In this document: piece after piece, positions 1,215-31,401 of the stretch | Numbering within the stretch: position 1 is the stretch's first letter | Layout: each line of letters opens with the position of its first letter | Virus record (IMG/VR): IMGVR_UViG_3300042691_009144 | Location: 1-34,633 of that record | DNA length: 34,633 nucleotides | Reading direction: 5' to 3' (one strand) | Source: a virus | Made by a program: the position numbers and the translations under genes | The notes under the pieces: generated by a model | The model's database searches: none | What the model was told of the DNA's origin: nothing | Seen by the model: the letters and a program-made list of their open reading frames with translations, nothing else

Positions 1215-2084
1215 ATGAAAGATCTAGTAATAGGCGCTATTACTGGGTATAACTTTGACGCTATCGAGCCTTGGGTTAACTCGCTAGAGAAATCCGGGTA
1301 CGATGGCGAAAAAGCTATGCTCTGTTATAATATCAGCTATGAAGTTGCCAACGAGCTCTCTGGACGTGGATTTAGAGTGTTCGGGTTTGAGCAGAACGAG
1401 GAACTGCGCCGTCTCGAATATACCAAACCTAACTTCAACGTTGTCGTTGAACGCTTTCTTCATATGGCGTTCGTTCTACGTGATCTGGGAACGAAGTATC
1501 GCTATATTATATCCACGGACGTCAAGGATGTCATCTTCCAGCGCAATCCTTCTGAGTGGCTTGAGAAGAACATCGAGACAGATTCTCCTTTTAAGGTTGT
1601 AGCTGCATCCGAATCAATTCAATACGATCAGGAAGACTGGGGTAACTTTAACCTCTTCCGCTCGTTTGGCCCTCAGGTCTATCAGACATTCCGCGATAAG
1701 ATTGTCTCAAACGCCGGCGTTATGGCTGGTGAATTTGAGCATATGCTCGACTTGTATATGCAGATTAAATTGCTATGTGACGGTGCTCCTGCGCACTTTA
1801 TCGAAGGCGGAGGCGGGCCCGATCAGGCTGCATATAATATTCTGATTAATTCTAAGCCGTGGAATAAAATTACACTCTTTGCTAAATCAGAAGATGGCTG
1901 GGCGGCGCAGCTAGGTACTACTGGTCCTCAGATTCAAGATCGCTATGGTAAGTTCGTAACTGAGTCTCTACCTATTCTTAAGGACGGTTTGGTTTGTACT
2001 TCAACCGGTGAGCCATTCTATATCGTACATCAGTATGATCGTGTGCCTCAGTGGAAGAACGAAATCTTGGCGAGGTATAAATGA
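1215..2084 (+). CDS. GT-A-like glycosyltransferase (289 aa)
   Basis: Probably transfers a sugar from a nucleotide-sugar donor onto a glycan. The N-terminus (DLVIGAITGYNFDAIEPWV) has the beta-alpha start of a nucleotide-binding fold. At about residues 99-112 is YIISTDVKDVIFQRNP, the 'D-x-x-D-x-hydrophobic-F-Q-x-x-P' motif of GT-A enzymes in which Asp residues bind the metal and donor. A glycine-rich FIEGGGGPDQAAYN loop near residue 200 is typical of the acceptor/donor pocket in related enzymes. There is no signal peptide or membrane helix, so it should act in the cytoplasm. It overlaps the next gene by four bases (ATGA) in a coupled run ending with UDP-galactopyranose mutase. Donor and acceptor are unknown. 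Confidence 0.75.
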   Translation: MKDLVIGAITGYNFDAIEPWVNSLEKSGYDGEKAMLCYNISYEVANELSGRGFRVFGFEQNEELRRLEYTKPNFNVVVERFLHMAFVLRDLGTKYRYIISTDVKDVIFQRNPSEWLEKNIETDSPFKVVAASESIQYDQEDWGNFNLFRSFGPQVYQTFRDKIVSNAGVMAGEFEHMLDLYMQIKLLCDGAPAHFIEGGGGPDQAAYNILINSKPWNKITLFAKSEDGWAAQLGTTGPQIQDRYGKFVTESLPILKDGLVCTSTGEPFYIVHQYDRVPQWKNEILARYK

Positions 2085-2836
2085 GAAAGTCTCTAATCTT
2101 TTGCTCAGTAGGTCAAGCACTTCCTACTGAAGGCCCATATGCAGAGAACCATTGGCGACGAACCGATCGTGGCAGTCGCGAATATCTAACGTCTATTGTT
2201 AATTATAACTACGAATCAGGTTTCCAACCAGAAGAATATTCGTATGATGTTAAGAGTGATAAGAAGGGCTTTAAATGGCCTCTAGCTCATGAATATATTC
2301 GTGAGAATCGCGATATGCTCATGAACGATTATGAGTACATTGGTATTTGGGATGACGATATCCAGGTTGATATCGAATCACTAAACCATTCTCTTATCAT
2401 GGCATATAATTGCGGTGCTAAGATGTTCCAGATGTCACTATCAGAAGATTCTGATGAGTGGTTCGATATTCTTAAGCATAAGCCTGACTATATTTTCTCA
2501 TGGACAAACTTCGTAGAGATCATGTGCCCTGTTTATCATACATCTCTTATTCCGATGATGATTGAGTTCTGGGACTTGTATCCATTTAAGACGGGGTGGG
2601 GCTTTGATAAAGTAGCGTGTGAGTTAGCTGAAGCGCCTGCTATGGTTATTCACTGCCGCCAGATGTATCATCCCCGTAGAGCTGAATCAACATACGATAA
2701 AGCAGCAGCGTTTGAAGAGATGCGTATCTGTATGCAAGAAGCTTATCCGGTATATTGCAAGAAACATTTCGATATTGATAACGCTAGGGTGCGTGATCAT
2801 CAGTTCGAATATCAAGCAATAAAAAGGATTCTTTAA
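2081..2836 (+). CDS. DUF707-type glycosyltransferase-like protein (251 aa)
   Basis: The core reads YEYIGIWDDDIQVDIESLN at about residues 86-104, then MFQMSLSEDSDEW, then FVEIMCPVYHTSLIPMM, then a 'GWGFD' segment. This order (WDDD; S-x-x-S-x-x-W; FVE-x-M-x-P; WG-x-D) is the pattern of the DUF707 family, which is related to GT-A glycosyltransferases. The triple Asp is the likely metal site. No signal or membrane segment is seen. It is coupled to its neighbours on both sides (ATGA upstream, TAATG downstream). It probably adds a second sugar in the same pathway as the preceding enzyme; the actual reaction is inferred. Confidence 0.75.
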   Translation: MRKSLIFCSVGQALPTEGPYAENHWRRTDRGSREYLTSIVNYNYESGFQPEEYSYDVKSDKKGFKWPLAHEYIRENRDMLMNDYEYIGIWDDDIQVDIESLNHSLIMAYNCGAKMFQMSLSEDSDEWFDILKHKPDYIFSWTNFVEIMCPVYHTSLIPMMIEFWDLYPFKTGWGFDKVACELAEAPAMVIHCRQMYHPRRAESTYDKAAAFEEMRICMQEAYPVYCKKHFDIDNARVRDHQFEYQAIKRIL

Positions 2837-3429
2837 TGGCAAACGTATTTCTAGATCTAGGTACCCATTTCGGGCAGGGTCTTAAGATGTTTATGGATCG
2901 TTTTAAGATGGATGAGTCTTGGACTATTCATACGTTTGAAGCTAATCCAACTACACATAAGATCTTCTTGGACGGCTTTCATAAAGAAGTGCCATGGGTA
3001 AAATCACACAATCAAGCAGTAGCCGATTATAACGGAACTATTACTATTAACGTTGAAACGCCCCCCGGTGAAGGAGATACAGGTCAAGGCACATCTATTA
3101 TCGATCTTGATAAGTGGTCGCCTTGGAATGGTACATTGCGTGACAACTTCCAACGTCAAGTAGATGTTGAGTGCATTGACTTTGCTCAGTTTATCAAAGA
3201 TAACTTTTCACCTGAGGATACTATTATCATAAAGATGGATATCGAAGGTGCGGAGTATCGCGTACTAGATAAAATGATTGAGACAGACGTACTCAAAGAT
3301 TACATTAATTTTATCACAGTCGAATGGCATTCGCGCTTCTTTACGAATGCAGATGAGATGCGCGTTCAAGAGAATAAGATTAGATATTACGCCAACATCA
3401 ACAACATTATAATGGAATCTTGGCAATGA
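2836..3429 (+). CDS. FkbM-family SAM-dependent methyltransferase (197 aa)
   Basis: Motif I is VFLDLGTHFGQGL (residues 4-16), followed by the acidic ribose-binding strand with TFEANP (about 33-38). The family's hallmark IIIKMDIEGAEYRVLDKMI appears at about residues 130-150 and ITVEWH follows. These are the standard landmarks of FkbM methyltransferases, which O-methylate sugars and other hydroxyls using S-adenosylmethionine. The protein is slightly short for the family but complete. It is coupled to the second glycosyltransferase (TAATG), so a role in capping or decorating the same glycan is the simplest reading. Confidence 0.85.
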   Translation: MANVFLDLGTHFGQGLKMFMDRFKMDESWTIHTFEANPTTHKIFLDGFHKEVPWVKSHNQAVADYNGTITINVETPPGEGDTGQGTSIIDLDKWSPWNGTLRDNFQRQVDVECIDFAQFIKDNFSPEDTIIIKMDIEGAEYRVLDKMIETDVLKDYINFITVEWHSRFFTNADEMRVQENKIRYYANINNIIMESWQ

Positions 3430-3470
3430 ATTTTCCTGACTTTCCTTTGAGCGCTAGGGAGAAGTACTAA
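3426..3470 (+). CDS. Possible 14-codon ORF between methyltransferase and glf
   Basis: An ATG overlaps the upstream stop (ATGA) and reads MNFPDFPLSAREKY before TAA at 3468-3470. The glf GTG start follows on the very next base. The ORF contains the CTAGGGAG ribosome site that would serve glf. It may be a coupling leader that carries ribosomes to the weak GTG start, a microprotein, or simply a chance reading of a spacer. No RNA or protein evidence can be drawn from sequence alone. Confidence 0.3.
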   Translation: MNFPDFPLSAREKY

Positions 3471-4574
3471 GTGGTATATGATTATTTGATTGTTGGTTCG
3501 GGCTTATTTGGCTCGACTTTTGCGCGGTTGGCTCATGATGCCGGTAAGTCTTGTCTTATTATCGAGCAGCGCGATCACGTTGGAGGCAATGTCTTCTCAG
3601 AAGATCAAGAAGGTATTCAAGTACACGTTTACGGACCACATGTCTTCCATTGCAATGATGAAAAGATCTGGCAATATGTAAATCGCTTCGCCGAGTTTAA
3701 TAACTTCGTAGCGATGCCTAAAGCTCAGTACGAGGGTAAGCTTTATTCGCTGCCCTTCAATATGAATACGTTCTACGAGATGTGGGGTGTTACTACACCT
3801 CAAGAAGCTATGGCAAAGATCGAAAGCCAGAAGCCGCGTATCAATCATGATCCTGAAAATCTTGAAGAGCAGGCAATTGCTCTCGTTGGACCAGATATCT
3901 ACGAGAAGCTTGTTAAGCATTATACCAAGAAGCAATGGCAGCGTGATCCAAAGGATCTTCCAGCGTTTATCATTAAGCGTCTGCCTGTGCGCTTCACATA
4001 CGATAATAACTATTTCAACGATCGCTACCAGGGCATTCCGATTGGAGGCTATGGTAAGATGATGGAGAATATGGTCAAGGGTATCGACGTTCGTCTTAAT
4101 ACAGACTACTTTATGGATCAAGATCTTTGGAATGTATGTGCTCGTAAGATTGTTTATACAGGTAAGATCGACCAGTACTTTGATTACAAGTTTGGTGAAC
4201 TAGAGTACCGTACACTTCGTTTTGAGAATGAATGGCACGAAACAGATAACTACCAGGGTATCGCGGTCATTAATGATACCGGGCCGAACAATCCCTGGAC
4301 GCGTACGATTGAACATAAGCACTTCGATCCTTCTCAAAAGACCGATCGCACAATTGTAACGCGTGAGATTCCTGATACCTGGGACAGAACTAAGATTCCT
4401 TATTATCCGATCAACGATGAGAAGAATCAGGCCATCTATAACAAGTATCGTGACCTAGCTAAGCAGGAAAAAAATGTAATTTTCGGTGGCCGTTTATCAG
4501 AATATCGTTATTATGATATGCATCAGGTCATTGGAAGTGCCATGGCCGCTTGGCGTAGGGAGACGGAAGATTAA
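3471..4574 (+). CDS. glf: UDP-galactopyranose mutase
   Basis: Converts UDP-galactopyranose to UDP-galactofuranose, the donor for Galf-containing glycans, using reduced FAD. The N-terminus has the Rossmann FAD site (YLIVGSGLFGSTFARLA) and then QRDHVGGN. Next come VHVYGPHVFHCNDEKIW, KHYTKKQW, LPVRFTYDNNYFNDRY and IPIGGYGKM, all family landmarks. The C-terminus has the closing FAD/substrate segment FGGRLSEYRYYDMHQVI. At 367 aa it is the usual length. The start is GTG immediately after a stop codon, with TAGGGAG about 8 bases upstream; no better ATG exists because the FAD motif begins at residue 5. It is the strongest functional anchor for reading 1215-4574 as a glycan pathway. Its stop overlaps the proposed AUU start of the next gene. 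Confidence 0.95.
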   Translation: MVYDYLIVGSGLFGSTFARLAHDAGKSCLIIEQRDHVGGNVFSEDQEGIQVHVYGPHVFHCNDEKIWQYVNRFAEFNNFVAMPKAQYEGKLYSLPFNMNTFYEMWGVTTPQEAMAKIESQKPRINHDPENLEEQAIALVGPDIYEKLVKHYTKKQWQRDPKDLPAFIIKRLPVRFTYDNNYFNDRYQGIPIGGYGKMMENMVKGIDVRLNTDYFMDQDLWNVCARKIVYTGKIDQYFDYKFGELEYRTLRFENEWHETDNYQGIAVINDTGPNNPWTRTIEHKHFDPSQKTDRTIVTREIPDTWDRTKIPYYPINDEKNQAIYNKYRDLAKQEKNVIFGGRLSEYRYYDMHQVIGSAMAAWRRETED

Positions 4575-5121
4575 TATATTCTATCTAGATGAAGATCCCA
4601 GGCAGTGCGCTGAATGGATGGTAGACAGGCATGTCGTTAAGATGATTGTCGAGACGGCGCAGCTGCTATCAACCGCTCATCGTATTATCGACGGTGAAGA
4701 AGTGATTGTGCATTTACAGCACAAAGAGACTGGAAAGGTCAAAAAGAAAAATGTGTGGATCCTGCCCGACGACCGCAATGACACTCTATACGCTTGCACA
4801 CACCGGAACCATCCCAGTGCTGTCTGGTGTCGCGAGTCAGTCGAAAATTACAACTGGGCTGTCGACCATCTTTACGCCCTTGGTCAAGAATATACCTTTA
4901 GATATGGAAAAAGACATGCAACGATTGAGAAATGCTTTTATCAACTCCAATCCCCTCCTCATGGGCTCCGCGCTTGGGATTGGACTAAGCCTCCTTCTGC
5001 AATGGATGAACGTTACATAATCTCTGACGACCCGGTGGTTAATTACCGTAATTATTATAAATATGGTAAGAGTAAATTACATGCGTGGAAGAATAGAGAA
5101 GCGCCAGTTTGGATATTATAA
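4570..5121 (+). CDS. Conserved phage protein, apparent AUU start (183 aa)
   Basis: I recognise the N-terminus (NIFYLDEDPRQCAEWMVDRH) as a family common in T4-like marine phages; members normally begin Met-Asn-Ile-Phe. Here that position is ATT (4570-4572), overlapping the glf stop (ATTAA). A TAGGGAGA ribosome site lies 7 bases upstream, so AUU initiation is likely. An alternative GTG at 4486 would force an 88-base overlap and add 28 residues out of line with the family. The pattern D-R-H-x-V-K-M-x-x-E-x-x-Q-L-L, then NHPSAVWCRES and a W-containing helix, resembles proteins annotated as pyrimidine-dimer glycosylase-like (MSMEG_6728 type). That link is remote and unproven. The last codons overlap a late-promoter box. 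Confidence 0.75.
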   Translation: MNIFYLDEDPRQCAEWMVDRHVVKMIVETAQLLSTAHRIIDGEEVIVHLQHKETGKVKKKNVWILPDDRNDTLYACTHRNHPSAVWCRESVENYNWAVDHLYALGQEYTFRYGKRHATIEKCFYQLQSPPHGLRAWDWTKPPSAMDERYIISDDPVVNYRNYYKYGKSKLHAWKNREAPVWIL

Positions 5122-5124
5122 ATA
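5117..5124 (+). promoter_or_regulatory. T4-type late promoter TATAAATA
   Basis: An exact TATAAATA, the -10-like box used by the T4 gp55 late sigma factor, overlaps the stop codon of the preceding gene. It lies 38 bases before the ATG at 5163. The leader contains CCTAGGGA (5147-5154) as the ribosome site. Position at a gene boundary and the repeated occurrence of this octamer before other gene groups support the call. Confidence 0.7.
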
Positions 5125-5162: not shown

Positions 5163-5549
5163 ATGTCAAATATCGATAAGTATACATCTTTTATTTCGGA
5201 GCAAAGCCGAACATCGCCTATGCAGTTAACGGAAGCCACTGAAAAGACTGCTGTGAAGCACGAGCTTAAAAATCTAAACCAGCATCTAGGTGGTAGTGTT
5301 GCTGATGCACAGCGTACAGGTCGTGGTACACAGATGACATCTCCGAGCGTTAATGTGTCTCACCATAAGAGTTCAGATGAAACTCACAAAGCCTTAACAG
5401 CCGCGGGGTATAAACATATCAAAAAGCCTTCGCCGTTCTATAGCGATGATCACAAATTTTACCAAAAAACAGATAGCCATGGGTTTACGCATACTTTAGC
5501 GCATTCTGGATCTGCAGTTCATCATATTGGAGCTAGTAAGAGTAGCTAA
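5163..5549 (+). CDS. Histidine-rich small protein with possible capsid-targeting N-terminus (128 aa)
   Basis: Function unknown. I chose the ATG at 5163 because it has GGGAG 7 bases upstream and follows a late promoter; upstream in-frame codons would run through the promoter. The N-terminus (DKYTSFISEQ) resembles the short F-x-x-F-I-x-E peptide of T4 internal head proteins. LTE-A at about residues 20-23 fits the prohead-protease consensus (L/I)xE followed by A, G or S. The remainder is polar and rich in His, Ser and Lys (about a dozen His, for example HTLAHSGSAVHH). It is a single-gene unit: late promoter before it, strong terminator 20-50 bases after it. A packaged internal head protein is an inference. 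Confidence 0.75.
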   Translation: MSNIDKYTSFISEQSRTSPMQLTEATEKTAVKHELKNLNQHLGGSVADAQRTGRGTQMTSPSVNVSHHKSSDETHKALTAAGYKHIKKPSPFYSDDHKFYQKTDSHGFTHTLAHSGSAVHHIGASKSS

Positions 5550-5573
5550 AAATAATTTAAAATTATGATAAAG

Positions 5574-5600
5574 ACCCCGCTTCGGCGGGGTTTTTTGTTT
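5574..5600 (+). terminator. Strong intrinsic terminator with UUCG tetraloop
   Basis: The stem CCCCGC/GCGGGG (5575-5580 with 5585-5590) closes a TTCG tetraloop in the stable C(UUCG)G context. Six T residues follow directly (5591-5596). It separates the histidine-rich protein gene from the next late promoter only a few bases downstream. Confidence 0.92.
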
Positions 5601-5603
5601 GTG

Positions 5604-5611
5604 TATAAATA
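5604..5611 (+). promoter_or_regulatory. T4-type late promoter TATAAATA
   Basis: An exact TATAAATA lies 8 bases beyond the T run of the terminator and 35 bases before the ATG at 5647. The terminator-promoter arrangement makes the PD-(D/E)XK-like gene the first gene of a new late unit. Confidence 0.8.
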
Positions 5612-5620
5612 CCTTATTAT

Positions 5621-5630
5621 TAAACGTTTA
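5621..5630. promoter_or_regulatory. 10-bp palindrome TAAACGTTTA in late leader
   Basis: A perfect palindrome lies between the late promoter and the start at 5647. The same half-sites, arranged as CGTTTA-aga-TAAACG, occur at 34386-34400 just before another gene. It could be a protein-binding site or chance in AT-rich sequence. Confidence 0.25.
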
Positions 5631-5646
5631 GGGGTATGTATTAAGT

Positions 5647-6453
5647 ATGGCGAGCGATAAAGCGTTTAGAGACGAAGAAGCAGCGTATAATGCTTTAAAA
5701 AAGAAATTGGGATCCACCGCTGTAACTTTTCAAGAGCCTGCAGGCGCGGATGCTGGGTTTCCTGACTTCGGTTTCACACTTTCCCTCCCAATGGGTAAAG
5801 TAGATCTTCATATTGAGTATAAAAATAGTTCAACGGCGCAGATGGGTAGTATGCGTGATTGGATTTTTAATGGTGATTCTTTCTCCACAAATGATAAAAA
5901 TAATGAGGAAAAAGCAGATTTGATCCACATTATGAATAATACTCAAACTGCTATAACGAATGGTAAACGTCTACTAAAAGATCTTCAAACATATGCTACT
6001 AAAGATATAAAGACTATAAGTTCAGGGTCTATGACTGTGATCAAAGATCAAGCTCTTCGCCGGGCAGCGCTAGTTTCTTTTGCAAACAATACTAAGAACT
6101 ATCAAATTGCGAATATTACTGATTCATCGCTCGGAGACGGTATCTTAACCCATTACAAGAAAAAGTTTAATAAGTCAAAAAGAACTACACGCGCCAAAGG
6201 GCATGTGTTGATTATGATGATTAAGGATGAGATTTGGTATGTGGATAAGTCGGGTGTAGATGATGCTACAATGAAACAGATCTCGAGTATACTTGGTGTA
6301 AGGACTATTAATAAGCTATCAGGGTTAACAGCCAATCTTGAAGTTAGAATTCAGCCTAGAGGTTTGAGCAGCTCTAATAAACCGGTTTCAATAGATGTTA
6401 TGGCGAGCTTCCGTCTCAAAGGAAAACCGACAGGCGGCATAACAGTAATTTAA
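5647..6453 (+). CDS. PD-(D/E)XK nuclease-like protein (268 aa)
   Basis: Not a family I can name. The N-terminal third carries what looks like a PD-(D/E)XK site: Glu10/Glu11 in a first helix, GFPDFGF with Pro39-Asp40, then VDLHIEYKNS with Glu57-x-Lys59. A strand-loop-strand spacing of 17 residues between D and E is normal for this superfamily, which includes endonucleases and Holliday-junction resolvases. The rest alternates helices with a possible C-terminal beta domain and has no membrane segments. It has its own late promoter and a probable weak terminator, so it is made late. The start ATG has AGGGG 12 bases upstream, a rather long spacing. Nuclease activity is inference. Confidence 0.75.
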   Translation: MASDKAFRDEEAAYNALKKKLGSTAVTFQEPAGADAGFPDFGFTLSLPMGKVDLHIEYKNSSTAQMGSMRDWIFNGDSFSTNDKNNEEKADLIHIMNNTQTAITNGKRLLKDLQTYATKDIKTISSGSMTVIKDQALRRAALVSFANNTKNYQIANITDSSLGDGILTHYKKKFNKSKRTTRAKGHVLIMMIKDEIWYVDKSGVDDATMKQISSILGVRTINKLSGLTANLEVRIQPRGLSSSNKPVSIDVMASFRLKGKPTGGITVI

Positions 6454-6467
6454 CAGTTGCCTTTTTT
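6436..6467 (+). terminator. Probable weak intrinsic terminator at end of PD-(D/E)XK gene
   Basis: GGC-at-AAC (6436-6443) can pair with GTTGCC (6456-6461), leaving a two-base bulge and a 12-base loop. Six T residues follow (6462-6467). The hairpin spans the stop codon of the preceding gene, which is unusual but possible. The stem is short, so partial readthrough into the HAD gene is likely. Confidence 0.45.
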
Positions 6468-6490
6468 CTCATAATAAGATATAAGAAGAT

Positions 6491-7093
6491 ATGGAAAGAA
6501 AACGCTTTAAAGAATTTATAGGTTCAGGTACGCTCACGATCTTTGATATCGATGAGACGCTCTTTCATACTAAGGCTAAGGTAGCCGTTATGAAAGGCGA
6601 TAAGGTTGTTCGGATGCTGGATAATCAGGAGTTTAATACCTACAAGCTGAAGAAGGGCGAGTCGTTTGACTTCCGTGAATTCCGCTCTGCAGAAGTATTT
6701 CGTCGTACTTCCACACCCATAGTACGCATGGTTGAAAAAGCCAAGGCGATTGTTAAGGCTAAGAATAATGCAGCTAGTCGTGCTATTATCGTTACTGCTC
6801 GTGCTGACTTCGATGACAAGGAAATGTTTCTTCAGACATTTAGGGATCACGGTATTCCAATTGATCAGATGCACGTTGAGCGCTCCGGTAACCTCGGCCT
6901 GGGGTCGCCTGCAGAAGCAAAGAAAGTCGTGTTTAGAAAATACCTAAATACTAAGAACTATATTAAAACACGCCTATATGATGATGCTATGTCAAACCTC
7001 AAAGCGTTTCTCGAACTGCAAAGTGAGTATCCAGGCGTTACTTTTGAAGCGTGGTTTGTAAAGCCGGATGGTTCTGTACAGAGGATTAAATGA
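6491..7093 (+). CDS. HAD-superfamily phosphatase with capsid-targeting-like N-terminus (200 aa)
   Basis: A hydrolase with all four HAD motifs. Motif I is FDIDETLF with nucleophile Asp19 and acid Asp21. Motif II is the Thr in IIVTARAD. Motif III is a Lys in PAEAKKVVF. Motif IV is LYDDAMSNL with Asp164-Asp165. HAD enzymes dephosphorylate small molecules or nucleic-acid 3' ends; the substrate cannot be read here. The first ten residues (MERKRFKEFI) precede the catalytic strand and match the F-x-x-F-I N-termini of nearby proteins. It is coupled to the ligase-like gene by an ATGA overlap. That neighbour suggests nucleic-acid end healing, analogous to the phosphatase half of polynucleotide kinase, but this is inference. 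Confidence 0.8.
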   Translation: MERKRFKEFIGSGTLTIFDIDETLFHTKAKVAVMKGDKVVRMLDNQEFNTYKLKKGESFDFREFRSAEVFRRTSTPIVRMVEKAKAIVKAKNNAASRAIIVTARADFDDKEMFLQTFRDHGIPIDQMHVERSGNLGLGSPAEAKKVVFRKYLNTKNYIKTRLYDDAMSNLKAFLELQSEYPGVTFEAWFVKPDGSVQRIK

Positions 7094-8280
7094 AGAAGTT
7101 TACTAGTTTCCTGAGAGAGATGACTGAGGCAGATGAGAAGAAACTCAAACATCTTGAGCACCTAGAAGATCATCCAATCAACGCTGGTAAAGAAGGCGTT
7201 GATCATGCCATGAATAATCTGCTTGACGTTCATCGTAAGCTTCGTGGACGTGAAAACGATACTAAGATTACTATGAAGTATGATGGTTCACCTTCGGTTG
7301 TTTTTGGCCATCATCCACAGACAGGTAAGTTCTTTGTAGCTTCCAAGTCCGTATTTAATAAGAATCCTAAGCTCAATTATACTGATGAAGATATCGAGAA
7401 GAACCATGGGCATGCCCCTGGTCTTGTTGAGAAGCTGAAGCATGCATTGAAACATCTTCCTAAGGTAGTACCACCGCGTGGTGTGTACCAGGGTGATATC
7501 ATGCATACAGCTGGTGATGTTCAAGAACATGGCCATAAGGTATCGTTCACTCCAAACACAATCACATACTCAGCTAAGAAGTCTTCCCCTCAGGGTAAGG
7601 CTGCTTTGGCGTCTAAGATTGGTGTAGCTGTTCATACAGCCTACAAGGGTGATAATCTCGAAGATATGGAAGCGCAATACGCTCCAGATCTTTCGCATTT
7701 CGGTAATCATAAAGACGTACATCTGATCTCTACAGAGCATGATCTATCTCAGATTGATTACAAGAAAGAGAATCAAGAAAATTTTAATAAGCATATTAAA
7801 GAAGCACAGCGAGTCGCTCGTCAGATTCCAGCTGAAGGCCATGATGCTATCAGTGCTCATAGAATTCCACTTAAGACTTATATCAACTCAACTGTACGCA
7901 CTGGTACCTCACCAGACGTAGAGGGCTTTATGGCTCACTATAAGAACGCTCATCAGAAGGGCATTGATAAGGTTAAAACACCTAAAGCAAAGGAAGCTAA
8001 GACTGTTGAGATGCAGCGCGCACTTCAGCATGTACTGGATAACAAGCATCACTTCCATAATATTCTACAGCTGCATAGTCATATGCAGAAAGCTAAGGAT
8101 GCACTAACACATGCATTGTCTTCTAATGCTGAGTTTGACCATCATATTGCTGGTAAAAAAGCTAAGCCGGAAGGATTCGTAGTAGTCCGTAATAACAGAC
8201 CGACCAAGTTTGTTGACCGTGCTGAGTTCTCAGCTGCTAACTTTAATAGACCAGCTCCTGGAGCAGAAAAAGATGGCTAA
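7090..8280 (+). CDS. Ligase-like nucleotidyltransferase (DUF6267-like, 396 aa)
   Basis: I recognise this as a protein common in T4-like marine phages, usually annotated only as a DUF (I believe DUF6267). It shows the landmarks of covalent nucleotidyltransferases (RNA/DNA ligases): motif I MKYDGSPS with candidate nucleophile Lys63; VYQGDIM (residues 132-138) in the place of the GE-type motif III; PEGFVVVR with Glu361 as motif IV; and TKFVDR with Lys373 as motif V. Motifs IV and V are 12 residues apart, as in ligases. It is very rich in His and Lys. The N-terminus KKFTSFLREMTEA resembles a capsid-targeting peptide with an LRE/MTE cleavage option. It is coupled to the HAD phosphatase and overlaps the next gene by 8 bases. 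Substrate (RNA or DNA) is unknown. Confidence 0.8.
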   Translation: MKKFTSFLREMTEADEKKLKHLEHLEDHPINAGKEGVDHAMNNLLDVHRKLRGRENDTKITMKYDGSPSVVFGHHPQTGKFFVASKSVFNKNPKLNYTDEDIEKNHGHAPGLVEKLKHALKHLPKVVPPRGVYQGDIMHTAGDVQEHGHKVSFTPNTITYSAKKSSPQGKAALASKIGVAVHTAYKGDNLEDMEAQYAPDLSHFGNHKDVHLISTEHDLSQIDYKKENQENFNKHIKEAQRVARQIPAEGHDAISAHRIPLKTYINSTVRTGTSPDVEGFMAHYKNAHQKGIDKVKTPKAKEAKTVEMQRALQHVLDNKHHFHNILQLHSHMQKAKDALTHALSSNAEFDHHIAGKKAKPEGFVVVRNNRPTKFVDRAEFSAANFNRPAPGAEKDG

Positions 8281-8893
8281 AGATAAAAAGATTGTAACTG
8301 CTTTCGGTAGAATGAACCCTCCTACAACAGGTCACCAGAAGCTGATTGATGCTGTTCTGAATAAGGCTAAGGCTGAAGACGCTGATCACGACATTCGTCT
8401 TTCGCATTCACAGGACGCTAAGAAGAATCCTCTTTCTCAAGAGCAGAAGCTTCATCATGCTCGTAAGATGTTTCCGGGAGTAAACTTCTCTGGTTCATCA
8501 AAGGAACAGCCATCGTTTATTCATCATCTCAAGGACCTTCACTCTAAGGGCTATACGCACGTAACGATGATTGCAGGTTCGGATCGCGTACCTGAATATC
8601 AGAAAATTGCTGATAAGTATAATAAGGATCCTAAAGAGGGTGGTGAGTTTCACTTTAAGTCTATCAATATTCATTCAGCGGGGCATAGAGATCCTGACGC
8701 AGAAGGTACCGAGGGTATGTCTGCCTCTAAGATGAGAGGCCATGCTCAAGAAGGTAATTATCACTCTTTTAAGTCTGGACTTCCTTCGCATGTATCTCAT
8801 GAGCATGCTAAGGAACTTTACGATCATGTACGCCAGGGTATGGGTCTCAAGGAATCATATATAAGAAAATTCAGATCTTGGCTAATGGGATAA
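8273..8893 (+). CDS. NMNAT/cytidylyltransferase-like nucleotidyltransferase (206 aa)
   Basis: An enzyme of the HxGH nucleotidyltransferase superfamily, which joins NMP groups to phosphate acceptors (for example NMN adenylyltransferase making NAD). The first motif is TAFGRMNPPTTGHQKLIDA, with TTGH at residues 18-21. MIAGSDRVPEY in the middle resembles the G-x-D segment after the third strand. EGMSASKMRGH (S150-x-S152-x-x-R155) is the closing ISxxxxR motif. The ATG at 8273 has GGAG 9 bases upstream and overlaps the ligase-like gene by 8 bases. The C-terminus (SYIRKFRSWLMG) is a short basic-aromatic tail. NAD or coenzyme synthesis, or supplying an adenylylated substrate to the ligase-like neighbour, are both possible. 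Confidence 0.82.
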   Translation: MAKDKKIVTAFGRMNPPTTGHQKLIDAVLNKAKAEDADHDIRLSHSQDAKKNPLSQEQKLHHARKMFPGVNFSGSSKEQPSFIHHLKDLHSKGYTHVTMIAGSDRVPEYQKIADKYNKDPKEGGEFHFKSINIHSAGHRDPDAEGTEGMSASKMRGHAQEGNYHSFKSGLPSHVSHEHAKELYDHVRQGMGLKESYIRKFRSWLMG

Positions 8894-10247: not shown

Positions 10248-10592
10248 ATGTCTGCCGCTACTACAGTTAATCTTGTTGTCAATCAGAAAGCCAGCTTCGA
10301 AGTAACATTCAATGTGCTCAATAGTAATAGTGCGCCGCTAAACCTGACCGGTTATTACGCGAACGCTAAGTTCAAAGCAGATATCACAGCGCCTGATTCT
10401 ACAGCTGTAGCTTTCCAAACATCTTTTGCTAATGCAAGTAACGGATCAGTTACTATTGCTCTTACACCTGATCAGACAGCTGATATGCAGGTTGGTCGCT
10501 ACGTATATGACGTAGCTATAACAAATTCTGCTACAAACTTCAAAACCAGAATCGTTGAAGGTAAGGTTATCGTGAGCGGGGGCGTTGCTTAA
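10248..10592 (+). CDS. Ig-like/BppU-type baseplate or fibre accessory protein (114 aa)
   Basis: A single beta-sandwich domain by pattern: [20 protein letters not shown], then AKFKADI, ending [10 protein letters not shown] and [13 protein letters not shown]. This is the layout of phage baseplate upper protein (BppU)-like and Ig-like domains, in which a small protein caps or anchors a fibre. Ribosome site CCTAGGGA is 6 bases upstream. Its stop overlaps the ATG of the giant fibre gene (TAATG), so the two are translationally coupled, probably in a fixed ratio. A role as attachment collar for the fibre is inference. Confidence 0.75.
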
Positions 10593-13500
10593 TGTCCGAT
10601 TTCGAGACTGTAACGCTTTCCGATGGCGAATCCATCACTATCGGGTCCGTTACAAGTAGAACAGAAATTACAGTCGGCGTTGCAACGGAAGGCGATGTAG
10701 CTGAGGTTTCCGCCTCTAGTGGTGTGGAAGGTCCTCGCGGTTATGCTGGTTCACGCGGCGATACCGGCTATGACGGTTCGCGCGGCTCTCTCGGCTATAC
10801 AGGCTCTATCGGTCCAATTGGGTACTCAGGTTCACGCGGCGCGCAAGGCGCTCAGGGTGTTCAGGGGACGCAAGGTGTCCAAGGTGCACCAGGTTATACA
10901 GGCTCTCAAGGACAACAGGGCGCTCAAGGTGTACAGGGTATCATCGGTCCTCAAGGTCCTCAAGGCGTAACCGGTTTTACTGGATCAAGAGGCGATACAG
11001 GTTACGCTGGTTCACGCGGCGATACAGGTTATGATGGCTCAAAAGGCGATTCAGGTTACGCAGGCTCACGCGGGGATATAGGGTACAGTGGCTCCATAGG
11101 GGATATAGGTTATACCGGTTCGCAAGGCGAACTAGGGTATACCGGTTCTAAAGGCGATACAGGCTATGATGGGTCTAGAGGCGATACAGGCTACGATGGT
11201 TCTAAGGGTGATCTAGGGTATACAGGCTCTAAAGGTGAGCGTGGTGACTTCGGCGGCGCTTCTTTCTATTATAAGTTTGATACAGAACTAGATCCTGAAT
11301 TAGTAGCTAACGGGTTCGTATTATTCAACAATACGAGCTTGAACTTAGCTAATACCATGAGTATAAGCATTTTTGATAAAAATGCAACGGATATTTCATC
11401 GTTTATTCAAACAATCGATGACTCTACATCAGATATTAAAGGTACAATCAAGGTAACAAGTGAAGCAAATACACTTGTTTATACTATCTTTAATATTACA
11501 AGTTCTCATACTAATCACGGCAACCACTATGATGTTCCTGTTGCCTATGTTACTGGTGTCACAACGCCGCTAGATGACAATAGCAATACTATTATTTCAT
11601 TCCTAGTTACAGGTGATCGCGGTGATACCGGTTATGTAGGTTCAACCGGCTACATCGGCTCAAAGGGCGATACCGGTTATGACGGCTCTAAGGGTGAAAC
11701 CGGCTATGACGGTTCAAAGGGTGACACAGGGTATGCTGGGTCAAAGGGTGATACCGGGTATGATGGTTCACGCGGCGATCTAGGGTATACCGGTTCAGCA
11801 GGCTATCTCGGATCATTTGGATATACCGGCTCAACAGGCTATGTAGGTTCAACAGGTACAGTTACACCAAGCAATACAGCCCCGGTTTCTTCATACGATG
11901 GTATGATCTGGTATGACAGTGAGACTGGTAAATCATACTTCCAATACAACGATGGTACATCCACACAGTGGGTTCTATTCGCTGATCCTACAGTTACAGA
12001 CGGTAAAGATGGTTATGTAGGCTCTGTAGGTTATGCAGGGTCTACTGGTGCTGTAGGATATGCTGGATCGCGCGGATTCACAGGCTATGTTGGATCTCAA
12101 GGATTTGTTGGCTCGTCAGGCGCGTTCGGTTATACTGGCTCGATCGGTATAGGTTATGCTGGCTCTCAGGGACCTCAAGGTGCGCAAGGAGCAGCTGGTT
12201 ATACCGGCTCACAGGGCGCTCAAGGGCAGCAAGGTGCTCAAGGTCGTCAAGGCGCCACAGGTCCTCAAGGTGTACAAGGACCTATTGGATATACCGGATC
12301 ACAAGGGCTGCAGGGAGCGCAAGGCGCTCAGGGTGTTCAGGGTGCGCAAGGCGCTCAGGGTGTTCAGGGTGCTACAGGTTACACGGGCTCGCAAGGTGCG
12401 CAGGGTCAACAGGGTGCGCAAGGTACAATAGGCGCTCAAGGATCTATTGGTGCTACAGGATACACTGGTTCGCAAGGCGCCCAAGGTGCGCAAGGCGTTC
12501 AGGGTGTAGTAGGTGCACAAGGTGCGCAAGGTGCTCTCGGCCCTACCGGCCCTCAGGGTGTTCAAGGCGCAATTGGTTACACCGGCTCACAAGGGCTTCA
12601 AGGCGCTCAGGGCGTACAAGGTGCCCAAGGTGCCCAAGGCGCGCAAGGTGCTATCGGTCTAACTGGTTACGATGGATCGCAGGGGCTCCAAGGCGCTCAA
12701 GGCGCTCAAGGTGTTGTTGGTGCGCAAGGCGCTCAAGGTGCAACCGGTTACGTTGGTTCACAAGGGCTTCAAGGCGCTCAAGGGACTCAAGGTGTGCAGG
12801 GTGCTACCGGTTATACCGGTTCGCAGGGTCTACAGGGGCAGCAAGGCGCGCTAGGCTATACCGGTTCGCAGGGGCTTCAAGGTCAGCAGGGCGCTCTAGG
12901 CTATACTGGCTCCCAGGGTCTACAGGGACAACAAGGCGCTCTAGGATATACCGGCTCACAGGGGCTTCAGGGAGCGCAAGGCGCAACCGGTTATACTGGA
13001 TCCCAAGGTCTACAAGGACAGCAAGGCGCCCAAGGCGTTCAAGGTGCGCAGGGTGCGCAAGGCGTTCAGGGTGCAACTGGATATACAGGCTCGCAAGGTC
13101 TGCAGGGTGTACAAGGTTCTATCGGTCCTACAGGATATGTCGGTTCGCAAGGGCTTCAGGGCGCTCAGGGTGTACAAGGTGCTACAGGCGCTGCTGGTAC
13201 ATCTGTCAATATTGAAGGCTCTGTTTCAACATTTACAAACCTACCAGGCTATCCCAGCTCTTATACCGGTGAAATCGGTGATGGTTACATCACTCAGGAT
13301 ACCGGGCATCTATGGGTATGGGATGGTGATTCCTGGAACGATGTAGGTCTCATTGTAGGCTATACCGGCTCGACAGGTGCTCAAGGTCCGCAGGGTATTC
13401 AAGGGGCAGCAGGAGCTCAGGGTGTTCAAGGCGCGGTAGGCGCACAGGGCGTTCAGGGTGCAACAGGCTATGTTGGTTCCCAAGGTCTGCAGGGAGCCCA

Positions 13501-16500
13501 GGGTACACAAGGCGTTCAGGGTGCAACTGGTTATGTCGGTTCGCAGGGGCTTCAAGGCGCACAGGGTGTACAAGGTGCTGTAGGTGCGCAGGGCTCTATC
13601 GGCGCGCAAGGCCCTATCGGGTATACAGGTTCACAAGGGCTACAAGGTGCCCAGGGCGTTCAAGGCGCTGTTGGTGCTCAGGGCGTTCAAGGTGCTCAGG
13701 GCGCATTAGGTTATACCGGCTCGCAGGGGCTACAAGGAGCCCAGGGTGTCCAAGGCGCACAGGGCGCACAGGGAGCACAAGGTGCTGTCGGCGCTCAGGG
13801 AGCACAAGGAGCCCAAGGTGCTATTGGATACACTGGATCGCAAGGGCTACAAGGAGCTCAAGGACAGCAGGGTGCAATCGGTTACACCGGATCACAGGGC
13901 CTGCAAGGTGCACAAGGTACGCAAGGGGTACAAGGCGCCCTAGGCTATACCGGTTCGCAAGGTCTGCAGGGTGCGCAAGGTTTAATTGGCTATACTGGAT
14001 CGCAAGGACTGCAGGGTGCGCAAGGAGCTCAAGGAGCTCAGGGTCAACAGGGCCCGATCGGATATACTGGTTCGCAAGGTCTTCAAGGTGCATTAGGTTA
14101 TACCGGTTCGCAAGGCCTACAAGGTGCTCAAGGACAGCAGGGCGCACAAGGCGCACAAGGCGCAACTGGATATACCGGCTCGCAGGGGCTACAGGGTGCG
14201 CAGGGTACACAGGGCGTTCAAGGCCCGATCGGTTATACCGGATCGCAAGGACTACAAGGTGCTCAAGGCGCTCTCGGCTACACGGGCTCCCAAGGTCTAC
14301 AAGGCGTACAGGGCGCGCAAGGTGCTCAAGGCGTACAAGGCGCAGTCGGCGCGCAAGGTGCGCAGGGTGTTCAAGGGCCTATTGGATATACAGGCTCTCA
14401 AGGTCTTCAGGGAGCGCAAGGTGCGCAAGGTCAGCAGGGCGCACAGGGTACTACTGGTTACACCGGTTCACAGGGTCTACAAGGCGCTCAAGGTGTTGTC
14501 GGTGCTCAAGGTCCAATCGGATATACCGGTTCACAGGGCCTACAAGGCGCTCAGGGTGTTCAGGGAGCTGTAGGTGCTCAAGGAGCTCAGGGCGTTCAGG
14601 GACCTATTGGCTATACCGGATCTCAAGGACTACAAGGCGCTCAAGGTCTAATTGGTTACACAGGATCACAAGGACTTCAGGGTACACAAGGCGCCCAAGG
14701 CGCACAAGGTGCGCAGGGAGCACCAGGCTATACTGGTTCACAGGGTCTTCAAGGAGCCCAGGGTGTTCAAGGTGCAGTAGGGGCACAAGGTGCTCAGGGT
14801 GTACAAGGACCTATTGGTTATACTGGATCCCAAGGTCTTCAGGGAGCGCAAGGCGCACAAGGTGTTCAGGGAGCTGTTGGTGCCCAAGGCGCACAAGGTG
14901 TACAAGGACCTATCGGCTATACCGGATCCCAAGGTCTACAAGGCGCGCAAGGCGTGCAAGGTGCGCAAGGTCAGCAGGGTGCGCAAGGCGTACAAGGTCC
15001 TATTGGCTATACCGGATCCCAAGGTCTGCAGGGCGCTCAAGGCGCGCTAGGTTATACAGGTTCTCAGGGTCTACAGGGCGTTCAGGGTGCAGTAGGCGCT
15101 CAGGGTGCGCAGGGTATACAAGGTGCTTCAGGTACATCTGTTACCATTATTGCTTCAGTTACCAACGTAAATGATAGCTACCCTGGCGGCGGACCTAACA
15201 ACCCTGATGGATACCTAAAATATTATTATCCTTCGGCAGCTGCTGGTAATGGTGTAATTGATACCGCGACAGGTAATCTATGGGTTTACTCAGGTACGGT
15301 TTGGAATAATGTTGGTCAGATCGTTGGTCCACAAGGTCCGATCGGTTACACAGGATCGCAAGGCCTTCAAGGGCGCCAAGGCGTCCAAGGCGCAGTTGGA
15401 GCTCAAGGCGCACAGGGCGTACAAGGACCAATTGGTTATACGGGTTCACAAGGACTTCAAGGCGTTCAAGGCGCACAGGGCGTACAAGGACCAATTGGTT
15501 ATACGGGTTCACAAGGACTTCAAGGCGTTCAAGGCGCGCTAGGTTACACTGGCTCGCAAGGCCTGCAGGGCGTTCAAGGCGCTGTCGGCGCGCAAGGGCC
15601 TATTGGCTATACCGGTTCGCAAGGGCTGCAAGGCGCACAGGGTGTTCAAGGTACAGTAGGCGCTCAAGGTGCGCAGGGTGTTCAAGGTCCTATTGGCTAT
15701 ACCGGCTCGCAAGGTCTAATTGGCTATACCGGCTCGCAAGGTCTGCAAGGCTTCCAAGGAACTCAGGGTGTACAAGGTGCAGTAGGCGCACAGGGCGTTC
15801 AAGGTGCGTTAGGATATACTGGCTCTCAAGGATTACAGGGTGCTCAAGGGGTACAGGGAGCGGTAGGTGCTCAAGGTGCGCAGGGTACTCAAGGTCCAAT
15901 CGGATATACCGGTTCGCAAGGTCTACAGGGCGTTCAAGGTGCAGTAGGTGCGCAGGGCGTACAAGGTGCACAGGGCGTTCAGGGACCTATTGGCTATACC
16001 GGGTCCCAAGGTCTTCAGGGTGCTCAAGGTCTAATTGGTTACACTGGCTCGCAAGGACTTCAGGGTGTACAGGGTGCTCAAGGCGTTCAAGGCGCTGTTG
16101 GTGCTCAGGGACCTCAGGGTGTTCAAGGCGCTACCGGTTATACTGGCTCGCAAGGCGTACAAGGCGCTACGGGCTATGACGGCTCCAGAGGCCTACAGGG
16201 TGTTCAAGGTGCAGTAGGGGCACAAGGTGCTCAGGGTGTACAAGGACCTATCGGTTATACTGGTTCACAAGGACTTCAAGGTGTACAAGGCGCCCAAGGC
16301 GTTCAGGGGCCAATTGGCTATACTGGTTCGCAAGGCTTGCAGGGACAACAAGGCGCATTAGGTTATACAGGTTCTCAAGGTCTACAAGGCGTGCAAGGTG
16401 CTGCAGGGGCTCAAGGCGTTCAAGGCGCAGTTGGCGCGCAAGGCGTTCAAGGCGCAGTTGGCGCGCAAGGCGTTCAAGGTCCTATTGGCTACACCGGGTC

Positions 16501-18172
16501 TCAGGGTCTACAAGGGGTACAGGGCGCTCAGGGCGTTCAGGGACCGATTGGTTACACTGGATCGCAAGGACTACAGGGCGTTCAAGGCGCATTAGGTTAT
16601 ACAGGTTCACAAGGACTGCAAGGCGCTCAAGGCATCCAGGGGGCTCAAGGCCCAATTGGCTACACAGGATCTCAAGGTCTACAGGGAGTTCAGGGTGCGG
16701 TAGGCGCACAAGGTGTTCAAGGTGCTGTTGGCGCCCCAGGAGCTCAAGGTGTACAAGGACCCATTGGTTACACTGGATCGCAAGGTCTGCAGGGTGTACA
16801 GGGTGCCGCGGGAGCACAAGGTGTACAAGGCGCAGTAGGTGCTCAAGGCGTCCAAGGTGCCGCAGGAGCTCAAGGTCCTATTGGTTATACCGGGTCTCAA
16901 GGTTTACAGGGCGTTCAGGGTGCTGTTGGTGCGCAAGGCGTGCAAGGCGCAGTTGGTGCTCAAGGCGCGCTAGGTTACACTGGCTCGCAAGGCCTGCAGG
17001 GCGTTCAAGGCGCTGTCGGTGCGCAAGGTATTCAAGGCGCAATAGGAGCTCCAGGCGCGCAAGGTGTACAAGGACCTATCGGCTACACCGGGTCTCAAGG
17101 ACTACAGGGCGTACAAGGCGCTGTCGGCGCTCAAGGCGTACAGGGCGCTATCGGCGCACCAGGCGCTCAAGGTGTTCAGGGTCCAATAGGATACACGGGA
17201 TCGCAGGGACTACAAGGCGTACAGGGTGCAGTGGGCGCGCAAGGCGTACAAGGCGCAGTAGGCGCGCCTGGAGCGCAAGGCGTACAAGGGCCTATCGGAT
17301 ATACTGGTTCCCAAGGTTTACAGGGCGTTCAGGGTGCTGTTGGTGCTCAGGGTGTTCAAGGCGCAGTAGGTGCTCCCGGTGCGCAGGGTGTTCAGGGGCC
17401 AATAGGATACACCGGATCTCAAGGTCTACAAGGCGTACAGGGTGCAGTGGGCGCTCAAGGCGTACAAGGTGCTATCGGTGCACCAGGTGCGCAGGGTGTT
17501 CAAGGCCCGATTGGGTATACTGGTTCGCAGGGACTCCAGGGCGTACAAGGCGCAGTAGGCGCTCCTGGTGCACAAGGTGTACAAGGCGCTGTCGGCGCTC
17601 CTGGTGCACAAGGCGTACAGGGCGCAGTAGGCGCTCCTGGCGCGCAGGGTGTTCAAGGCCCTATTGGTTATACTGGTTCCCAGGGACTACAGGGCGTACA
17701 AGGCGCAGTAGGCGCTCCTGGTGCACAAGGTGTACAAGGTGCTGCAGGGGCTCAGGGTCCAATCGGATACACAGGATCACAAGGACTGCAGGGTGTTCAA
17801 GGCGCAGTAGGCGCGCCTGGTGCTCAAGGCGTTCAAGGCGCTGCTGGACCTCCAGGAGCTCAAGGTGTACAGGGTGCAGTAGGCGCGCCTGGTGCTCAAG
17901 GTGTTCAAGGCGCTGCTGGACCTCCGGGCGCACAAGGTGCTGTTGGCGCTCAGGGCGTACAAGGACCTATTGGTTATACCGGCTCAACAGGTATCAGTGT
18001 CACGACTACCGCGCCTTCGTCGCCGAATGTTAATGACGTTTGGATTGACTCTGACGGTACACCACCTATAGGTTACACAGGTTCACTAGGATCGCTACCT
18101 TATAACTTCACTGTCGGCCCGACAGCGCCGACAACACCGGTACTTTACGATATTTGGATTGATACAAACTAA
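10592..18172 (+). CDS. Giant collagen-like tail-fibre protein (2526 aa)
   Basis: About 2,140 of 2,526 residues are uninterrupted Gly-X-Y triplets. Gly-X-Y segments are residues about 47-220, 341-424, 471-869, 923-1513 and 1578-2467. They are separated by a 120-residue beta-type domain (about 221-340) and small W-rich modules (about 425-470, 870-922, 1514-1577). Early repeats are [11 protein letters not shown]-like; later ones are [16 protein letters not shown]-like, with Gln dominating the Y position and few prolines except near the end. One imperfection ([10 protein letters not shown], near residue 515) breaks the triplet register by one residue. The C-terminus has two short 'P..NDVWID' modules. 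Such proteins form trimeric triple helices; at 0.286 nm per residue this would be roughly 0.6 micrometres. Role as host-contact fibre is inferred from position and composition. Confidence 0.93.
12809..12943 (+). repeat. 45-bp repeat, three diverged copies, in collagen-like gene
   Basis: Three consecutive 15-residue units [15 protein letters not shown] have the same protein sequence but many synonymous base differences, such as TATACCGGTTCG against TATACTGGCTCC. This is what old tandem duplications look like after silent drift under protein-level constraint. Confidence 0.8.
15407..15532 (+). repeat. Exact 63-bp tandem duplication in collagen-like gene
   Basis: Two adjacent 63-base units (15407-15469 and 15470-15532) appear base-for-base identical and encode the same 21 residues, beginning [15 protein letters not shown]. 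The unit is a whole number of triplets, so reading frame and Gly-X-Y register are kept. Most other repeats in the gene differ at silent sites, so this copy is probably recent. Confidence 0.88.
16415..16477 (+). repeat. 27-bp tandem repeat, 2.3 copies, in collagen-like gene
   Basis: The unit GGCGTTCAAGGCGCAGTTGG plus CGCGCAA occurs twice without change (16415-16441, 16442-16468) and then as a 9-base partial copy. It encodes [10 protein letters not shown] similar 27-base unit is duplicated at 12323-12372. Confidence 0.8.
16964..17503 (+). repeat. 108-bp higher-order repeat array, five copies
   Basis: Five successive 36-residue units (12 triplets each) begin [20 protein letters not shown] and end GAPGAQGVQ; the first begins GAL and two positions vary between V and I. 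At base level the copies differ at silent positions. This higher-order period is clear only near the C-terminal end of the Gly-X-Y region; the block after it continues with shorter units containing GAPGAQ. Confidence 0.85.
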
Positions 18173-30695: not shown

Positions 30696-30951
30696 GGAAT
30701 TTATAGACGAGGCTACATATCAGGGTAAGAAAGTACCTCTTAATAAGCGCCTACCCGGCGACGTTAAGAAGTCAAAAGTCTTTGTTGACCCTGACGGCGA
30801 CGGAAAAGCTCAGAAGGTAAACTTCGGCGATAAAAATATGAAGATTAAAAAGAATATCCCAGCTCGCCGTAAATCATTTAGAGCCCGTCATAACTGTGAT
30901 AATCCAGGGCCGAAGACAAAAGCTCGCTACTGGTCTTGTAAAGCTTGGTAA
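30682..30951 (+). CDS. Conserved small basic phage protein (89 aa, capsid-targeting-like N-terminus)
   Basis: I recognise the C-terminal half, FGDKNMKIKKNIPARRKSFR and then ARHNCDNPGPKTKARYWSCK, as highly conserved in T4-like cyanophages and some other large viruses; the function is unknown. The two Cys and the His (RHNC, WSC) could bind a metal. The N-terminus from this ATG is MIRFKEFIDEATYQGKK, matching the F-x-x-F-I-x-E-A form of T4 internal-protein targeting peptides, with IDE-A as a possible cleavage site. An earlier in-frame ATG at 30670 adds four residues; neither has a strong ribosome site. It overlaps the end of the 933-residue gene, suggesting coupled translation. Confidence 0.82.
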   Translation: MIRFKEFIDEATYQGKKVPLNKRLPGDVKKSKVFVDPDGDGKAQKVNFGDKNMKIKKNIPARRKSFRARHNCDNPGPKTKARYWSCKAW

Positions 30952-30960
30952 GGAAGTAAA

Positions 30961-31401
30961 ATGGAAGAATTAATTGAAGATCTTAAGAAGGTGTTTGCTG
31001 CAAACTACGCTTTCTATCTAAAGGCCCAATACTATCACTGGAACGTAGAAGGTCCAGATTTCCCTCAGTACCATGAGTTCTTTGGTAGCCTTTATCAAGA
31101 AGTAGGCGGCGCAATCGACTCAATGGCTGAGCATATTAGAGCGCTAGATGCATATGCGCCTGGCTCATTTAAACGCCTGGAAGAGCTATCATTTATCGAA
31201 GGTGATGATACTATTCCTACTGGACTTGCTATGGCCGCAAAGCTTCTCGAGGATAATGATAAACTCACACCAATGCTTATCGATGTTATGAAGAAAGCAG
31301 AAAGTGTTGATAGATACGGTACAGCTAACTTTATACAAGATAGAATCGAAGCTCATAGAAAGCATGCTTGGATGCTTCGTGCGATAACAAAGAGAGTCTA
31401 A
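30961..31401 (+). CDS. Dps-like ferritin-fold protein (146 aa)
   Basis: Dps proteins form 12-subunit cages that oxidise and store iron and protect DNA. The signature AQYYHWNVEGPDFPQYHEFF is present, then VGGAIDSMAEHIRALDAYAP. Measured from His26, candidate ferroxidase ligands fall at His38 (+12), Asp53 (+27) and Glu57 (+31). This is the same spacing as His51, His63, Asp78 and Glu82 of E. coli Dps. The position of E. coli Asp67 (+16) is Gly42, so one ligand may be missing. There is no Lys-rich N-terminal tail for DNA binding. The length is normal for a short Dps. Ribosome site GGAAG precedes the ATG, and it sits between conserved head-type genes and is coupled (TAATG) to the next one. Confidence 0.88.
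   Translation: MEELIEDLKKVFAANYAFYLKAQYYHWNVEGPDFPQYHEFFGSLYQEVGGAIDSMAEHIRALDAYAPGSFKRLEELSFIEGDDTIPTGLAMAAKLLEDNDKLTPMLIDVMKKAESVDRYGTANFIQDRIEAHRKHAWMLRAITKRV

Follow-up and report, generated by a model that had tools for sequence, protein, structure and literature searches.

Capsid targeting-like terminal peptides on putative cargo proteins of a T4-related lake virus

Tagged genes in the window

The window, which is the whole stretch of DNA analysed here (34,633 nt; positions 1 to 34,633 of IMG/VR record IMGVR_UViG_3300042691_009144), is a 34.6-kb fragment of a T4-related lake virus. Four of its proteins, starting at 5163, 6491, 7090 and 30682, begin with a similar short peptide. This shared start is very likely to be a capsid targeting sequence, which would dock the proteins in the assembling head, be trimmed by the prohead protease gp21 and commit them to injection. 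The features at these genes are as follows.

5118–5124, + strand: late-promoter-like site of T4 type (TATAAATA from 5117), 45 bases upstream of the ATG at 5163
5163–5201, + strand: putative targeting peptide MSNIDKYTSFISE of the 5163 protein, a tag common to ten different cargos
5163–5549, + strand: small tagged protein of 128 aa, hypervariable cargo, no known family
6491–6523, + strand: half tag MERKRFKEFIG, with the docking residues and without the cleavage E
6491–7093, + strand: HAD-type phosphatase-like protein of 200 aa, with the motif FDIDETLF
7090–7128, + strand: putative targeting peptide MKKFTSFLREMTE, predicted cut LRE↓M or MTE↓A, outside the fold in an AlphaFold2 model
7090–8280, + strand: DUF6267 protein, probably a ligase-like nucleotidyltransferase
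30670–30951, + strand: small phrog_7595 protein of 93 aa
30682–30711, + strand: putative targeting peptide of the 30682 protein, MIRFKEFIDE, with the predicted cut just ahead of ATYQGKK

The four N-termini singled out in the original prediction belong to real open reading frames (ORFs), each with an ATG start: MSNIDKYTSFISEQ at 5163 (128 aa), MERKRFKEFIGSG at 6491 (200 aa), MKKFTSFLREMTEA at 7090 (396 aa) and (MDSQ)MIRFKEFIDEA at 30670 or 30682 (93 or 89 aa, ATG 30670 adding MDSQ). Motifs were counted in the 35 called ORFs of the window. The start [FY]xxF[ILV] within the first 16 residues is confined to the four named proteins (4/35), against a mean of 0.32 in shuffled sequences (P=4.5e-4), and the stricter [FY]xxF[IL]xE is found in 3/35 (P=5e-5, the lowest value that 20,000 shuffles can give). 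Chance or composition bias as the cause of the motif is ruled out by the shuffles together with the position profile. A search for the plain FxxF pattern at the DNA level was uninformative.

The motif coincides with exactly the four positions (4, 7, 8 and 10) mapped by mutation in the T4 capsid targeting sequence, where residues 4 and 7 mediate targeting and residues 8 and 10 processing (PMC9026906). In T4, gp21 cuts after L/I-X-E, a peptide of the first 10 IPIII residues is enough for packaging, and D at position 10 blocks processing and leaves targeting intact; the T-even phages carry different basic proteins behind similar targeting sequences (PMC9026906, reviewing work by Black). Searched with this motif, the T4 genome yields IPII and IPIII (MKTYQEFIAE↓A) and gp61.1 (L069:18966–19130), which has a targeting-like start, MKTFKEFIKED; no text was found to support gp61.1 as a known T4 virion protein. 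T4 IPI begins MKTFKEFT...ITE↓A, with F4, F7 and a gp21 site at residue 19.

All four window proteins possess the targeting residues (an aromatic residue at 4 and F7, within the first 10–20 residues). The processing residues (I/L8 and E10, or a nearby (L/I)xE) are present in the 5163, 7090 and 30682 proteins and missing in the 6491 HAD protein. The common short form reported in the original prediction is therefore correct for [FY]xxF[IL], but does not extend to the cleavage position of the HAD protein, which reads RFKEFIGSG, with S in place of E. A further candidate gp21 site in the 5163 protein, LTE↓A, ends at 5234. Ten proteins have a common MSxxDKYxxFISEQ-like start and diverge downstream; for one relative (L013), the match to the window 5163 protein is limited to residues 1–16. 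The 5163 locus is, judging from these comparisons, a cargo slot. Between the tagged genes, 5647–6453 (+ strand) encodes an untagged 268-aa protein with no family match.

The protein at 7090 is a member of DUF6267 (PF19782, E=1.5e-102, residues 20–386). In an AlphaFold2 model built from a 12-row alignment it is well folded from residue 21 (mean pLDDT 87), and residues 1–20 score below 50. The motif I sequence KxDG (K63-x-D65-G66) is invariant. The top Foldseek matches of the model are mostly DNA or RNA ligases, all weak (best E=0.21), and a PDB sequence search with DUF6267 gave no match. The label 'ligase-like' in the original prediction is made plausible by the invariant K-x-D-G and the ligase-rich Foldseek list, although those matches lie only at E>0.1; the protein is probably ligase-like. 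Elsewhere, DUF6267 proteins bear divergent tags. In the close relatives L010–L013, a different, tagged 329-aa protein (MKKFSSFINEAR) is encoded immediately upstream of DUF6267.

Spread of the tag among relatives

The loci compared encode relatives of DUF6267, phrog_7595 or the HAD protein, and the tag is found there on non-homologous neighbouring proteins. Among 2273 non-redundant ORFs, [FY]xxF[ILV]xE starting in the first 12 residues occurs 77 times (2.82 per 1000), compared with 0.059 per 1000 in ORF interiors, a 48-fold N-terminal enrichment. Once the tags are stripped, the tagged proteins fall into about 39 cargo clusters, a figure that includes a few loose matches and in which the largest single-linkage cluster merges several families through fusions. 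Cargo domains include a SAM lyase, Zeta-toxin/AAA, a poly(A) polymerase head, a kinase and a cytidylyltransferase. In an alignment of 25 largely unrelated cargos the only invariant columns are F7 and E10; as both were selection criteria, the alignment shows that nothing else is common. Matches to PADLOC among the cargos were weak (best 6e-5) and were left unused.

A few unrelated ORFs match the motif loosely, and [FY]xxF[IL] is short, so that the four window proteins could be unrelated matches, the HAD match being perhaps such a case. For the group, chance likeness is scarcely credible in view of the N-terminal enrichment, the conservation of the cut site in the phrog_7595 contexts and the association with virions described below; for the HAD protein alone it is possible.

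A natural control for the cut

The phrog_7595 family provides a natural control for the proposed cleavage. In Kolga, CRP-901 and HTVC026P, the domain starts directly with M-A-(K/T)-Y-x-G, and gp21 was not found in these complete genomes. In other phages, unrelated sequence stands ahead of the domain and ends in IDE↓A (window), LTE↓A (C48C1), LEE↓A (HTVC008M) or LDE↓G (immuto); in Melnitz, the domain is internal to a larger protein. gp21 is encoded by the four named phages with an extended or fused form (C48C1, HTVC008M, Melnitz and immuto). Across 78 distinct environmental contexts, the boundary has E at P1 in 77 cases and A at P1' in 77, with E↓A together in 76; P3 is L, V, I or M in 70 of the 78, and most other upstream positions are variable. 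gp21 was present in 8/14 environmental contigs tested, of which the remainder may be fragments. Cleavage would leave an N-terminal Ala, as would methionine removal from the M-A forms.

Four long relatives of the window encode gp21 and gp23, and in relatives the likely gp23 propeptide sites are LFE, LTE, LNE or LGE. Directly behind the tagged 30682 gene, 30961–31401 (+ strand) encodes an untagged Dps/ferritin-like protein (PF00210, E=3.2e-26).

Virion proteomes of related cyanophages

Virions of cyanophages have repeatedly been found to contain kinases, NMNAT-like enzymes and SAM hydrolase, which the authors could not tell from contaminants (PMC10665884). In the S-CREM2 virion proteome, 52/219 ORFs were detected (PMC10665884). 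Every annotated S-CREM2 coding sequence was translated and searched, within 16 residues, for a motif pre-specified from T4 and the window. Its carriers are the SAM hydrolase (MKDFDSFLEE), an APH-like kinase (MKRFDAFLTEE) and the cytidylyltransferase (MKNFSSFLTEA). All three were detected in virions, compared with 25/192 other non-structural ORFs (p=0.0027); the test by which the original prediction would have failed, frequent use of this start by non-virion proteins, gave no result against it here. In its relaxed form (see below), the motif is found on all four enzymes listed by the authors as non-structural and not lytic. In addition, the NMNAT of the S-SCSM1 virion (proteome, PMC9602691) starts MKSFLQFLKEA, and the virion kinase of S-CRM01 starts MISFDQFLSEK. 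The link between the tag and cyanophage virion enzymes appears to be unreported in the open-access literature searched, in which a full-text search gave the T4 review only.

ORF12 of S-CREM2 (L083:7704–10313), tagged and virion-detected, has homologues in 30 other Synechococcus phage records. Annotated Cas9 by the authors, it has no Pfam match at E<0.01, and this label is doubtful.

Several points weigh against the capsid targeting interpretation. gp21, gp22 and gp23 are absent from the window contig, a 34.6-kb fragment. DUF6267 is untagged in several relatives, namely marine cyanophages (MAQQNKHLEHLEDE) and S-CRM01 (MAKDGKNVHLEHLEDD). E at position 10 is found in 0/38 of the HAD homologues listed, and injection of the tagged proteins is inferred by way of T4. 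In S-CREM2, a relaxed motif adds ORF12 (LRFASFMAEA), ORF13 and ORF136, with 6/7 carriers detected (p=3.4e-5), but was set partly after the sequences had been seen. The targeting half alone does not predict virion detection in S-CREM2 (p=0.22), so both halves of the tag are needed for prediction; [LI]xE alone, with 63 carriers, is likewise not predictive overall (p=0.19). Contamination of the S-CREM2 virion preparation could not be excluded by its authors (PMC10665884).

Such carry-over of abundant proteins, which these authors consider possible, might explain virion detection if the peptide were some other shared adaptor, for example to a late protein complex or for host degradation, and N-terminal processing of the tags is at present deduced from sequence. 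An adaptor of this kind is very improbable, since it would not account for the gp21 consensus beside the peptide, for the tagless forms where a phage lacks gp21 or for the same peptide on the tails of gp21 itself (see below). Taken as a capsid targeting sequence, the peptide matches the original prediction of a T4-like peptide removed by gp21 in the 5163, 7090 and 30682 proteins, for which comparative evidence and the virion proteomes of relatives agree; these three very probably carry a working capsid targeting sequence and gp21 propeptide. The HAD protein has the targeting half only. Packaging by the window phage itself would follow by analogy with these systems. The DUF6267 ligase-like protein is a good candidate for packaging because of the tag evidence from the controls and the relatives' virion proteomes.

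The HAD phosphatase-like protein

In its HAD part, the 6491 protein weakly matches the polynucleotide kinase family (E=3e-6). The 38 homologues listed begin RF(K/R)xF(I/V/L)GxGTLTxFDIDETLF, or very near it, with no linker. The match could instead belong to the fold, as FxxF leads straight into the first beta strand. The missing cut site rules out the HAD protein as a normal tagged member, and it is not counted as a full member of the capsid targeting group for that reason. The suggestion that the phage packages a phosphatase by means of this peptide is thus borne out for the targeting half but not for cleavage; on the mutant evidence from T4 it could be targeted and stay uncut, or it may not be packaged at all. 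The chances that it is in the virion are about even.

C-terminal tags and putative polyproteins

Further features are as follows.

8273–8893, + strand: cytidylyltransferase (NMNAT-like), no N-terminal tag
8855–8890, + strand: C-terminal tag-like tail SYIRKFRSWLMG after GLKE↓
27894–30695, + strand: putative cargo polyprotein, 933 aa from ATG 27894, (L/I)xE at module junctions
32038–33729, + strand: second putative cargo polyprotein, 563 aa, repeated (L/I)DE junctions

The cytidylyltransferase at 8273–8893 (phrog_3041, E=4.6e-64), which had been overlooked, carries a mirror-image tag at the C-terminal end. The ending ESxxxRFKNW[IL], or one near it, is found in more than 30 homologues, and a 69-aa virion protein of S-SCSM1 ends LPEKKKRTFKEFLEYIE. 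Exclusivity of N- and C-terminal tags in cytidylyltransferases was considered (22 N only, 4 C only, 0 both, 11 neither, p=0.02), and was set aside as weak, at least one 'N' call (L040) being spurious.

The gp21 proteins of relatives also end in such peptides: LNE..LFEDFLNKI (G002), LQE..FARFLKKL (G007), IEE..FEDFMFNL (G008) and IDE..FEKFLKSL (G010). The FxxF form is absent from the gp21 tails of T4 and of more distant gp21s. A T4 review raises the idea that the propeptides of gp21 might behave as targeting sequences do (PMC9026906), and the FxxF[LM] tails of the relatives bear on this question of whether gp21's own termini are targeting peptides.

In the 933-aa putative polyprotein, the open frame reaches back to TTG 27876. 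A GLWxNI module follows [LIVM]xE in 19/20 contexts (once directly after MIRYKDFISE) and M-A in 1/20, and other polyprotein modules recur elsewhere as separately tagged proteins. A similar junction, EEVELDE, is present in the virion protein ORF92 of S-SCSM1. These junctions suggest that gp21 may cut both the 933-aa and the 563-aa polyproteins.

Proposed mechanism

Under the capsid targeting interpretation, a peptide with an aromatic residue at 4 and F7 would dock the new protein on the scaffold core while the prohead is being assembled. gp21 would then cut after the adjoining (I/L)xE or at a second downstream site, a step with strong sequence support, and the mature cargo would be released into the head. 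As in T4, the cargo would exit with the DNA at the next infection and act early in the new host. The cargo behind the tag would be freely variable, as in the ligase-like DUF6267, phrog_7595 and the hypervariable 5163 protein. The cytidylyltransferase is probably cargo too, with its peptide at the C-terminus, and the HAD protein, with the docking half only, would be packaged uncut, if at all.

The peptide could also be a core-docking signal and gp21 site on proteins that serve head assembly or remain in the head, as core filler or in DNA condensation. IPIII mutants of T4 are slow in head assembly (PMC9026906), and some of the modules found here resemble T4 internal proteins in being small and basic. 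This seems unlikely, however, as several cargos are enzymes with an early-infection logic (SAM lyase, kinase, cytidylyltransferase, Zeta-toxin-like), and hypervariable cargo fits a host-facing role better than a structural one.

The chances are about even that T4-related phages of a large environmental group use a single head-loading code, FxxF[IL] docking with (L/I)xE trimming, attached to either terminus of dozens of effector families and to the tail of the protease, with cargo polyproteins cut by gp21 inside the head into several injected proteins. A readable packaging signal would provide a mechanism for the presence of enzymes in virions, and the injected arsenal of a large group of marine and freshwater phages could be predicted from sequence.

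Other features of the window

The T4-type late-promoter-like sequence ATAAATA occurs at eight sites in the window (including 5117, 5604, 27672 and 33731, + strand), a total equal to that expected by chance. All eight are on the coding strand and 6/8 lie 29–45 bases, counted from the site start, upstream of a gene start. The count was rejected as evidence, and the placement alone is suggestive. A single 2526-aa ORF (10592–18172, + strand) consists almost entirely of collagen-like Gly-x-y repeats and is presumably a fibre. A sugar-enzyme-like cluster (1215–4574, + strand), judged by eye, contains glycosyltransferase-like ORFs, an FkbM-type methyltransferase-like ORF and a UDP-galactopyranose-mutase-like ORF.

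Comparison with known systems

The closest likeness is to IPI, IPII and IPIII of T4, which have a short N-terminal peptide with an aromatic residue at 4, F7, I/L8 and E10, or a later (L/I)xE↓A (IPI), ahead of varied cargo; gp21 is encoded by the relatives of the window. Like IPI, the 5163 protein (FISE and LTE↓A) and the 7090 protein (FLRE and MTE↓A) have a further site downstream. Most cargos here are, in contrast, enzymes and small modules with no relationship to T4 internal proteins, one window protein has no cut site, and packaging by the window phage is a prediction.

The propeptides of T4 gp21 and Alt, cleaved at the C-terminus and possibly at both termini (PMC9026906), are similarly removable terminal peptides adjoining (L/I)xE, but the T4 gp21 tail lacks the clear FxxF[LM] of the relatives' tails. 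Internal head and ejection proteins of phiKZ and SPN3US (PMC5694885) also have protease-removed propeptides, which probably target them into the head. These are mostly of more than 100 residues with S/A-x-E sites, whereas the peptides described here have about 10 residues and (L/I)xE.

Polyvalent proteins (PMC5512222) are likewise multi-domain phage proteins with shuffled domains, predicted to be packaged and injected. Their processing is attributed to zincin-like metallopeptidases, whereas the candidates described here have gp21-like (L/I)xE junctions and modules that are also separately tagged. The two window candidates match none of the peptidase families in Pfam and are for this reason not classed as polyvalent proteins. 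Three things are new here relative to T4: C-terminal versions of the tag, the same peptide on the tail of gp21 itself, and polyproteins whose modules are separated by gp21-like sites.

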